A stretch of 64,000 nucleotides of DNA, taken from assembly GCF_003003795.1 (NCBI RefSeq), contig NZ_PVWK01000142.1, positions 62,001 through 126,000 of the forward strand, given 5' to 3'. A program made the position numbers and the translations under genes. This DNA is from Stenomitos frigidus ULC18 (lineage in GTDB: Bacteria > Cyanobacteriota > Cyanobacteriia > Leptolyngbyales > Leptolyngbyaceae). The notes below the pieces were generated by a model, which saw only the letters and a program-made list of their open reading frames with translations, ran no database searches and had not been told where the DNA came from. Below are positions 16,535 to 19,060 of the stretch, one piece after another (position 1 is the first letter of the stretch; the number at the start of each line of letters is the position of its first letter).

Positions 16535-18343
16535 TTAACGCTGTTCAAGAAGACGTTGATAGGCGGCCGTGAAGTCATCAGCAATGATCTGAATCGCTCC
16601 AGGGTCGCTGGCTCCTTGCCGACGATAGCGACGGATGGCTTCTAACGCGGCCTGATTGGTCAGCAGCGTCAAGTCAGCCCCGTTCCAGCCCTCTGTTTGA
16701 GCTGCCCAAGACGCTAAATCGACGTCTGCTAAAGGCCGATCGTCATTGTGCACATGCAAAATCGCCAAACGACTCGCCTCGTCAGGGAGATCAACTTTTA
16801 GCTGTAAATCTAACCGTCCAGACCGCAGCAAAGCTGGATCAAGCGCTTCTGGGCGATTGGTTGCTCCTACCAACAGGACATTGGGACATTCGTGTAAGCC
16901 ATCCAGTTCCGTAAGCAATTGACCCACGACGCGATCGCTCACGCCTGTATCGCCATGCCCCCCTCGCGCTGGAGCTAATGTATCCAGTTCATCAATGAAA
17001 ACCACGCAGGGTGCAGCCTGTCGCGCCTTTGCAAACAAGTCTCGTACAGCCTGCTCTGAGGCACCGACCCATTTGCTCATCAGTTCAGGACCATTGACAG
17101 CAATAAAATTCGCGCGTGCTTGCGAGGCAACCGCTTTGGCAAGCAACGTTTTGCCTGTGCCTGGAGGCCCCCACAGCAAAATGCCACGCGGCGCTTTGGC
17201 TTTGGTGTGGTGGTAAAGCTCAGGATAGAGTAACGCGCCCTCAACCGCTTCTTGCAAGGTTTGCTTGAGGCTGTCTAGCCCGCCGATCGCATCCCATGTA
17301 ACGTTGGGAGTTTCAACCTCCACCGATCGCAATACCGCAGGCTTCACCTGCTTGGTTGCGTGAATAAAGTCTGCCTGGTTCACGGTCATCGCCGTTGGCA
17401 TGGGAGCATTCGGCGACGGCACAAACCGACGCAAGGCAGTATAAGCCGCTTTCTGGCAGAGCGCTTTGAGGTCAGCGCCCACCATGCCCACAGAGCGATC
17501 GGCGATCGCGGCCAGATCTACCCCGTTCAGAGGCATTGTTTTGGTCAGAATCTTGAGAATCTCCAGCCGTCCCGCCCGATCGGGGACACGAAACTGAACT
17601 TCGCGATCGAAGCGTCCAGGTCGGCGCAGTGCCGGATCGAGATGATCGGGGCGATTGGTTGCAGCGAGCACAATCACGCCTTTCGTTTTGGCGAAACCAT
17701 CCATCAAGCCCAGCAATTGAGCGACGACACGCTTCTCGACTTCGCCTTCGACCTGGGAGCGATCGGGCGCAAGGCTGTCAATCTCGTCAATAAACACAAT
17801 ACAGGGTGCCGATCGAGACGCTTTTTGAAACAGGCTTCGCAAGCGACCTTCGGCTTCTCCGTAGTATTTGCCCATGATCTCAGGGCCGACGATCGCGATG
17901 TAGTTAACCCCTAGATCGTGAGCTAGGGCACGAGCCGTCAGGGTTTTGCCTGTTCCGGGTGGTCCCACCAGGAGCACACCCGATGTAGGTTCCAGCCCAA
18001 GCATGGTGAGCAAGTCTGGACGCTTAAGTGGCAACTCTACCAACTCTCGCAGTTCGCTTAAAACCTCTGTCAGCCCGCCGACGCCTTTCAGTGAGACAGG
18101 AGTGGCTGATGGTGCGTCAGTGGTATCTCTGACAGTGGCAGTTGCTGTGCGATCCGAACGGGCAGCAGCGTCAACCGTAGATCTCTGCTCTGGGCGATGG
18201 TCCGCATCACCATTAGAGGCGCGTCTCACATCCGTCGAGAATGTTTCTGGCTCTGCTCTGCCTTCAATCACTCTCACTATATCCAGCAACCCATCAACGC
18301 CCTGATCAAACAGGTCGCTAAATTCTTTCAATAAGTCATCCAT
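16535..18343 (-). CDS. CDC48/VCP-like tandem AAA ATPase without N domain
   Basis: A 602-residue protein with two AAA modules. Both Walker A motifs read GPPGTGKT (about residues 127-134 and 392-399), Walker B motifs are IVFIDEID and VVFIDELD, pore loops KYYGEAE and KWVGASE hold the aromatic residue, and sensor/Arg-finger motifs ATNRPDHLDPALRRPGRFDR and ATNRPEALDPALLRSGRLD follow. Archaeal and eukaryotic CDC48 have an N-terminal substrate-binding domain; here it is replaced by about 85 residues of low-complexity acidic and Ser/Thr-rich sequence. The likely activity is ATP-driven unfolding; the substrate is unknown. It is upstream of the cNMP histidine kinase, possibly one transcript. Confidence 0.9.
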   Translation of the reverse strand: MDDLLKEFSDLFDQGVDGLLDIVRVIEGRAEPETFSTDVRRASNGDADHRPEQRSTVDAAARSDRTATATVRDTTDAPSATPVSLKGVGGLTEVLSELRELVELPLKRPDLLTMLGLEPTSGVLLVGPPGTGKTLTARALAHDLGVNYIAIVGPEIMGKYYGEAEGRLRSLFQKASRSAPCIVFIDEIDSLAPDRSQVEGEVEKRVVAQLLGLMDGFAKTKGVIVLAATNRPDHLDPALRRPGRFDREVQFRVPDRAGRLEILKILTKTMPLNGVDLAAIADRSVGMVGADLKALCQKAAYTALRRFVPSPNAPMPTAMTVNQADFIHATKQVKPAVLRSVEVETPNVTWDAIGGLDSLKQTLQEAVEGALLYPELYHHTKAKAPRGILLWGPPGTGKTLLAKAVASQARANFIAVNGPELMSKWVGASEQAVRDLFAKARQAAPCVVFIDELDTLAPARGGHGDTGVSDRVVGQLLTELDGLHECPNVLLVGATNRPEALDPALLRSGRLDLQLKVDLPDEASRLAILHVHNDDRPLADVDLASWAAQTEGWNGADLTLLTNQAALEAIRRYRRQGASDPGAIQIIADDFTAAYQRLLEQR

Positions 18344-18407
18344 ACACTTCTACGTAGGGAGTGCTGGAGACGATTGCCCAGCCCAATGACTTCATTATAG
18401 ACATGGG

Positions 18408-18449
18408 GGTGAGGAGTGAGGGGTGAGGAGTGAGGGGTGAGGGGTAAGG
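18408..18449. repeat. Tandem heptamer repeat (RGTGAGG type)
   Basis: Six exact-register 7-base units alternate GGTGAGG and AGTGAGG and end in GGTAAGG. It lies upstream of the AAA ATPase gene. Confidence 0.92.
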
Positions 18450-18556
18450 CGTTTTGAGTTGGAAGAGAGGGGCGATCGAAAAGGGGAAGCACTACCCAGT
18501 TTCCGTGCATCCTGCCTCATTCAAGACCATTGCAGACTTATGAATGAAGTATCTCG

Positions 18557-18790
18557 TCCTCATTCACAACGATAAGAGGCGCTTTAATAACCAGTAAGGT
18601 GTTCATTCACGACTGTCCGGGACTCATTCACCAGCATCCGAAGCGTATTCGCGAGTAGCCGAGACTCATTCGCGAGTATCCGAAACTCATCCACGAGTAT
18701 CCAGGACTCATTCACCAGCATGCTCAGGCTCATTTCCGAACATCAGAGGCTCATTAAAGAGAATCAGCTACTCGTAAATGACGATCGTGG
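18557..18790. repeat. Degenerate 21-bp-period tandem array, about 11 units
   Basis: Units resembling GACTCATTCACCAGCATCCGA begin at 18557, 18600, 18621, 18642, 18663, 18684, 18705, 18727, 18748 and 18769, so the spacing is 21 bases with a single 22-base step; the unit near 18579 is decayed. Since 21 is a multiple of three, several frames stay open across it. In the minus-strand reading a seven-residue pattern of the form xLVNESR recurs, and in the plus-strand reading DSFxSIR recurs. No homology to a known repeat family is claimed. Confidence 0.85.
18584..18733 (-). CDS. Possible 49-codon heptad-repeat peptide
   Basis: An open frame with ATG starts at 18733 and 18721 and a stop at 18584-18586 runs through the 21-bp array. 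It would encode a helical peptide with near-repeats MLVNESW, ILVDEFR, ILANESR, LLANTLR, MLVNESR, a plausible coiled coil. There is no convincing ribosome-binding site, and the openness could simply follow from the repeat period. It is listed because the heptad register and leucine spacing are striking. Confidence 0.2.
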   Translation of the reverse strand: MSLSMLVNESWILVDEFRILANESRLLANTLRMLVNESRTVVNEHLTGY

Positions 18791-18812
18791 GTTGAACGTT
18801 GATGCGAGATAC

Positions 18813-18840
18813 CTCACACCCCACACCCTAAACCCCACAC
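18813..18840. repeat. Tandem heptamer repeat (CCCACAC type)
   Basis: Four units (CTCACAC, CCCACAC, CCTAAAC, CCCACAC) end eight bases before the stop codon of the next minus-strand gene. Confidence 0.85.
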
Positions 18841-18847
18841 CCTTCCA

Positions 18848-19060
18848 TCAGTAGCTATCATCCCGACCGACCGTTTGGGTTTCAAGCAAATGATTGGCCT
18901 CATGGAGTCGGTTGGCGATCGCCTGTCGCCACACGAGATCAATGCTGGGATCGGCTAACACATCCTGAGCCAGTTCACGATACACGGCGCTGGTGGCAGC
19001 GTTTACATGTTCGAGCATACGGAGGTTGTGATAAACCACACGAGGAGAAATAGCGTCCAT
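18848..19060 (-). CDS. Small hypothetical helical protein
   Basis: A 70-residue protein starting MDAISPRVVYHNLRMLEHV and ending in NHLLETQTVGRDDSY. It is predicted soluble and helical and carries no motif I recognise. The ATG at 19060 is chosen over the longer frame to 19111 because GGAAGG lies a few bases upstream of it. It follows gltD by about 75 bases on the same strand and could be transcribed with it. Confidence 0.6.
   Translation of the reverse strand: MDAISPRVVYHNLRMLEHVNAATSAVYRELAQDVLADPSIDLVWRQAIANRLHEANHLLETQTVGRDDSY

Follow-up and report, generated by a model that had tools for sequence, protein, structure and literature searches.

A dispersed family of 21-bp palindromic tandem arrays linked to a small-protein gene in two bacterial phyla

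Phased binding sites that adjoin the gene of a small binding protein are familiar from plasmid iterons and from parC/parS-type centromeres. Among cyanobacterial repeats, the SDRs of Nostoc punctiforme (Elhai et al. 2008) reportedly have units of a size similar to those treated here (21–27 nt) and often lie beside heptamer repeats; they are said to be scattered singly and to have compensatory secondary structure, rather than to form phased tandem arrays. The heptamers in the DNA described below are presumably the STRR heptamer repeats of cyanobacteria. Two further systems bear a close resemblance to the arrays reported here. As outlined in one study, REP elements are short extragenic palindromes that fall into sequence types, each beside a distinctive single-copy RAYT gene, and a long co-evolution of the two has been proposed (PMC3116915). 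BrickBuilt of Porphyromonas gingivalis is presented in its abstract as a MITE/minisatellite with a 23-nt unit, flanked by a leader and a tail with inverted-repeat ends (PMC4596501). The open-access literature that we searched, mostly titles and the beginnings of abstracts, yielded no description of the array analyzed here or of its pairing with a gene.

The array in the window

The window, that is the whole stretch of 64,000 nucleotides from Stenomitos frigidus ULC18 that we analyzed, contains a 21-bp-period array at about 18514–18789, slightly longer than the span assigned to it in an earlier sequence-only reading. Over 18514–18790, 21 is the top of all periods from 8 to 89, with a self-match of 0.531. 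None of 2000 first-order Markov resamples reached this value at any period from 8 to 63 (maximum 0.398), and TRF also calls period 21, at 18603–18715, confirming that the degenerate array is real. Its unit consensus is the 21-mer GACTCATTCACGAGTATCAGA, and the recognizable units are:

18514–18789, plus strand: whole array of 21-bp imperfect palindromes, a solo copy of the family
18514–18534, plus strand: unit GCCTCATTCAAGACCATTGCA, set apart, 43 bp upstream of its neighbor
18557–18577, plus strand: unit TCCTCATTCACAACGATAAGA
18600–18620, plus strand: unit TGTTCATTCACGACTGTCCGG
18621–18641, plus strand: unit GACTCATTCACCAGCATCCGA
18642–18662, plus strand: unit AGCGTATTCGCGAGTAGCCGA
18663–18683, plus strand: unit GACTCATTCGCGAGTATCCGA, nearest to the consensus
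18684–18704, plus strand: unit AACTCATCCACGAGTATCCAG
18705–18725, plus strand: unit GACTCATTCACCAGCATGCTC, after which comes the only 22-base step
18727–18747, plus strand: unit GGCTCATTTCCGAACATCAGA
18748–18768, plus strand: unit GGCTCATTAAAGAGAATCAGC
18769–18789, plus strand: unit TACTCGTAAATGACGATCGTG, the final and weakest unit

From 18600 on, the units follow one another at 21 bases with one 22-base step. The ten unit starts of the sequence-only reading are therefore present with the spacing it gave, except that the first gap, from 18557 to 18600, measures 43 bases, that is two units plus one base. We read this gap as holding a decayed unit. The unit at 18514, again 43 bases upstream of its neighbor, is an extra one, and a model path through the array counts about 13 units, decayed ones included, with three off-register steps.

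Two minus-strand genes flank the array, which faces the start of an AAA ATPase gene and the end of a small gene. The ATPase gene (16535–18343, minus strand) encodes two AAA domains, and the array lies in the spacer upstream of it, as had been noted before. G-rich and C-rich heptamer arrays occur on both sides (18406–18449 and 18811–18842) and are roughly complementary to each other (72% over 36 nt). The array itself had been viewed as intermediate between these heptamers and a true minisatellite, a view that its periodicity does not bear out. Its six best periods (21, 64, 42, 85, 43 and 63, of those from 8 to 89) include multiples of seven only as multiples of 21; 14, 28 and 35 are outside the six, and the array does not appear to share the 7-bp period of STRR heptamers. 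Moreover, the corresponding spacer of a sister genome, G005, lacks the array, though the neighboring small protein is 94% identical, and keeps heptamer-like repeats after the small-protein gene. Heptamers thus occur there without the array. Most of the window array is also bracketed by a 12-nt inverted pair (92%; 18545–18556 and 18805–18816). This pair is not kept in the orthologous array of genome G006, and we rejected a MITE with terminal inverted repeats for this reason.

Both heptad readings described earlier, DSFxSIR on the plus strand and xLVNESR on the minus strand, are present in the array. Open frames run through it, extending from stop to stop over 87 amino acids on the plus strand (18591–18854) and 52 on the minus strand (18584–18742), which would suit an array that encodes a heptad (coiled-coil) protein, as the title of the sequence-only reading hinted. 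We examined 41 uninterrupted in-register runs of at least 210 bp in all six frames. Every frame contains stops over this set; the least interrupted one is stop-free in 12 of the 41 runs, and stop rates per frame (0.026–0.096) are close to the 0.023–0.106 expected from independent columns, given the base composition by register. No open frame is conserved over the set, with the exception of four copies inside genes. These copies, from four genomes of the genus, are free of stops and use the same register frame, and they speak for coding at their own loci. For the intergenic arrays as a set, however, the stops in all six frames at near-chance rates already contradict a heptad protein, and we rejected it, together with the peptide proposed earlier, as highly improbable.

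The four in-gene copies are arrays of 300–400 bp lying in frame inside an alpha-mannosidase ORF in G000 (the source genome), G001, G003 and G006 (L073, L078, L084 and L091), whose Glyco_hydro_38 domains were identified by running Pfam on the G003 copy. Heptamers of the type CCCCACTC adjoin the alpha-mannosidase array in several of these four species. A related gene in G002 (L083) contains no array according to our model and gives a short blastn-type match only.

A dispersed family linked to the A2 gene

The sequence-only reading had raised the question of whether the unit recurs in related genomes. Homologous arrays exist there, and the unit is conserved. By a blastn-type search, 12 of 97 genomes contain arrays, counting the source genome. 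A sequence-only profile built from four units matched all seven genomes of the genus, again including the source genome, in which it detected about ten arrays (the two weakest at E 0.02–0.06); at E 1e-6 it matched 34 of 388 genomes of the class, representing 18 of 160 genera. Among the matches listed by a pattern scan are Nostoc, Fischerella, Tolypothrix, Scytonema, Westiellopsis, Calothrix, Brasilonema, Stenomitos and others, and also one Chitinophagaceae MAG (L213). A cyclic 21-state model resolved 59 arrays with 814 units and 42 off-register steps (57 loci; one locus gave none). At the listed pattern loci, some of which duplicate loci of the first set, it resolved 82 arrays with about 1026 units and 15 off-register steps (80 of 111 loci), one of these arrays being very weak at 3.2 bits per unit. 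Across the family, array lengths differ, and the 21-bp spacing is nearly free of indels despite heavy divergence.

The genes around the arrays are arranged in tandem in 28 cases, convergently in 13 and divergently in nine; four arrays lie inside a gene and three at a contig edge. Because these orientations look random, we rejected a promoter or terminator role. Proteins combining TIR and AAA_35 lie beside or near arrays in several genomes (L070, L085 and L121, and by ORF clustering L087 and L098; three of the five were run against Pfam). We take them to belong to a common large family and set them aside on this ground.

Clustering of the flanking ORFs revealed that eight arrays adjoin the 3′ end of one protein family, an unnamed family of about 160 amino acids that we call A2. 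It has no match in Pfam or NCBIfam at the cut-off; its best Pfam hit, CFAP58_CC, was obtained with one member at E 0.0026, below the cut-off. Comparison with PHROG, PADLOC and the PDB gave no convincing relation (best solved structure at E 0.05), and we found no relatives in viral_contigs or among phages, so we rejected a defence or phage link. A2 alignments contain no invariant or majority-conserved histidine, and A2 therefore has no HUH motif. The median pI of the family is 6.2, and the one protein that we examined has no more than a basic tail, features that weigh against DNA binding. The AlphaFold model, built from four sequences, is poor (pLDDT 45) and with low confidence suggests a helical protein.

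A2 occurs in 33 of the 97 genomes; among the relatives that we searched, a single genome gives as many as 11 matches. It is present in all 12 genomes with blastn-detected arrays versus 21 of the 85 others (Fisher p 5e-7 by genome and 0.0025 by genus, uncorrected for phylogeny). For the linkage at the level of loci, we scored an array wherever the best period within a 700-bp flank was 21, 42 or 63 with a self-match of at least 0.45. By this measure, 53 of the 65 A2 loci examined, which come from cyanobacteria and from the L213 MAG, have a period-21-type array beside the gene, 47 of them on the 3′ side and 6 others on the 5′ side. The control flanks of an unrelated gene gave 2 of 60, and these two are the window array and its orthologue. 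Fragments and contig ends are among the 12 A2 loci that failed. Two of the 12, L294 and L295, are followed by a window-type array at a distance of about 0.85 kb, and at a third, L272, such an array lies just 3′. Diverged A2 genes with the array on the 5′ side are found at L316, L320, L321 and L324 (G060), L313 (G000) and L292 (G036). At L299, L306 and L296, the best repeat measures 42 bp and consists of two units in alternation, which hints at a higher-order repeat of two units.

Seen from the arrays, the linkage is sparser. We counted 168 window-type arrays that are 90 bp or longer, a set that includes duplicated records. Thirteen of them have an A2 gene or part of one within 900 bp, on the same side in 12 of the 13. 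No A2 gene lies within 900 bp of the window array and no A2 remnant adjoins it, which led us to reject the idea that it is the leftover of a local A2 gene. The window array is a noncoding solo copy of the dispersed 21-bp family. The closest A2 clade has no member in the assemblies of G001, G003 and G004, despite their strong window-type arrays.

From one A2 subfamily to another the units change, and their similarity follows protein identity (47 loci; Mantel rho 0.385, 0 of 1000 permutations), a signal that shared descent of gene and array alone could produce. A second A2 gene of the source genome, on contig C95, carries a different unit, and this unit recurs at five further places in the same genome (C95:12153, C143, C157, C89 and C92). 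These five solo arrays are of the period-21 type. The flanks retrieved around them contain no full A2 gene, and one array adjoins a 22-amino-acid A2 remnant. Solo arrays of the matching unit are thus found in the source genome for two A2 subfamilies.

Such a pairing of a gene-linked array with scattered solo arrays of the same unit type, with units that differ by subfamily, is also what a selfish element of the REP/RAYT kind would display. A2 would then mobilize or copy the arrays, and the solo arrays would be non-autonomous passengers with no host role. The scattered positions, the lack of a preferred gene orientation and the presence or absence of an array between sister species agree with this, our main rival explanation. 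Nevertheless, A2 lacks the conserved histidine and hence the HUH motif, the orthologue of the window array does not retain the inverted pair, orthologous arrays are kept between species and relatives in viral_contigs or phages were not found. We regard a selfish element as unlikely, while ranking it first among the alternatives.

The linkage extends to a second phylum. The Chitinophagaceae MAG, whose class we take to be Bacteroidia, contains, besides the solo array L213, an A2 gene that is followed on its 3′ side by a window-type array (L298). Counting the MAG, A2 homologues at E 1e-10 are present in 23 of 295 Bacteroidia genomes. We examined 29 of the 42 Bacteroidia A2 matches other than L298, with gene positions taken from tblastn. 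At a self-match of at least 0.5, 23 of the 29 have a 3′ array (18 at periods 21, 42 or 63 and five at 43 or 44) and six fail; on the 5′ side three of the 29 pass, at periods 8, 20 and 35. Some of these arrays run at 22 (44) or 43 instead of 21 (L365, L374 and L377; L362 and L376 at 43). The 3′ gap of one gammaproteobacterial A2 homologue contains no period-21 array, and its 5′ gap, at 159 bp, is too short to score.

Symmetry and constraint of the units

Upon inspection of the family profile, roughly GACTCRNNNAYGAGNNTYNRA, we noticed that the unit is near-palindromic about two axes, the second of which follows at a distance of 10.5 bp because of the 21-bp period. Dyad symmetry exceeds that of column shuffles (p < 0.05) in 37 of 47 A2-linked arrays and is significant in 16 of 20 Bacteroidia arrays tested. 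Palindromes of this kind, together with the usual position of the array directly 3′ of the A2 gene, raise the alternative that the arrays are transcribed, often with A2, into chains of hairpins that bind or regulate A2. The minus strand of the window array does fold better than shuffles (z −2.7), and unit positions 2–13 and 13–23 covary positively. By contrast, positions 5–10 are anti-correlated, and the net covariation of the pairs is nil (Stouffer −0.75 over 47 arrays, all cyanobacterial except one from the L213 MAG, and 0.57 over 17 from Bacteroidia; each array is short and has low power). Neither as RNA (z −0.6) nor as DNA does the plus strand fold better than shuffles, and Rfam gave no match at the gathering score; its single hit falls outside the array and scores 13.6 bits where 49 are required. 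Furthermore, hairpins have no need of an exact 21-bp spacing, and some arrays lie 5′ of the gene. With the plus strand indistinguishable from shuffles and covariation nil in sum and mixed at single pairs, we rejected RNA or single-strand hairpins; an RNA element appears rather improbable. The absence of net compensatory pairing fits better with half-sites in duplex DNA than with hairpins.

Comparison of orthologous arrays shows where the unit tolerates change. The corresponding neighborhood of G006, a sister species, contains an orthologue of the window array with 75% identity over 273 bp and no gap. We compared 18 array pairs, two of which gave no alignment (L073–L078 and L069–L096). Many gaps in the better aligned pairs are multiples of 21, although some measure 2, 15, 27 or 44, and further lengths appear in the weaker alignments. 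Across six intergenic orthologue pairs, core positions differ at 49 of 454 sites versus 107 of 454 for free positions, and substitution depends on register (chi-square 82.9 over all 21 registers). The window pair alone has a weaker contrast (core 14 of 77, free 20 of 77). Unit-to-unit conversion, that is concerted evolution, could account for part of the difference between core and free positions.

These comparisons bear on the view that the arrays are neutral minisatellites spread by slippage, their period and gene linkage being historical accidents. Unit-sized gains and losses between orthologues, the variable array lengths and the local similarity of units are in line with slippage. Yet the same period recurs in two phyla and among units of unrelated sequence, most arrays tested have dyad symmetry, substitution is register-dependent and indels are few relative to heavy substitution. 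The neutral reading is already weakened by these observations, and we consider it quite improbable. Neutral decay in the absence of homologous arrays, the outcome against which the sequence-only reading had set its own proposal, is likewise not what we found: homologues exist, their indels are few and core positions have changed about half as often as free ones.

A candidate protein–site pair and its relation to known systems

Our data reveal a family of arrays with a fixed period and a palindromic unit, linked to the same gene in two phyla and with units that differ by subfamily. A protein–site pair is the most economical account of these observations; from them we infer binding, cooperativity and function. 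The A2 protein would bind its own unit type as a dimer on duplex DNA. Because 21 bp corresponds to two turns of B-DNA, neighboring sites face the same side of the helix, and their cooperative filling would build a nucleoprotein patch. Such patches would form beside the A2 gene and would also arise in trans, on the solo arrays. The latter may have arisen from gene–array pairs by copying or by gene loss and may then have grown or shrunk by whole units, with selection on core bases and spacing keeping them in place. That the solo arrays belong to a family tied to A2, whose proteins bind their own unit type on duplex DNA, is a reading we hold to be evenly poised, judging from sequence.

What the pair does is a further step. 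Chromosome marking or organization is our leading guess. The results point to an undescribed gene-plus-array system in two phyla. We tentatively propose, as a possibility to which we give less than even weight, a two-part system of Cyanobacteriota and Bacteroidota. It would consist of small helical proteins that each have, beside the gene, a rapidly diverging palindromic array phased at two helical turns, and cognate solo arrays elsewhere on the chromosome; the resulting patches would organize or mark the chromosome, and array and protein would co-evolve while period and symmetry stay fixed.

An anonymous degenerate repeat thereby becomes a testable candidate protein–DNA pair. If the predicted binding is true, A2 and its arrays would be a new chromosomal site/partner system, and many “minisatellites” of filamentous cyanobacteria could be explained. 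The unit sequences change by A2 subfamily while the 21-bp spacing and the dyad symmetry persist; given binding, proteins and sites that match each other in nature would be at hand for work on specificity.

Among the known systems, STRR heptamers lie in the same spacer, but they differ from the array in period and occur in G005 without it. Like BrickBuilt, which belongs to Bacteroidota, the A2-type arrays are intergenic tandem arrays of a short unit with many copies per genome (PMC4596501). Unlike it, they have a partner gene, none being linked to BrickBuilt in its abstract (PMC4596501), and the window array has no conserved terminal inverted repeats of the kind that bound a BrickBuilt-like MITE. 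The likeness to REP/RAYT, as that system is outlined in the source considered here, lies in palindromes beside a partner gene with matching types dispersed elsewhere, an arrangement that we find here as well. The differences, on the same outline, are that A2 has no HUH motif and does not qualify as a Y1/HUH tyrosine transposase, that long tandem arrays spaced by two helical turns take the place of REP doublets, and that the repeats show no net compensatory pairing of the kind expected of hairpins. Iteron and centromere systems differ in that A2 could be placed in no named family from the libraries we searched and that many solo arrays lie on the chromosome, some of them inside a coding gene. 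Apart from solo copies such as the window array, however, the gene-linked arrays resemble iterons and centromeres in placing phased dyad sites next to a gene.
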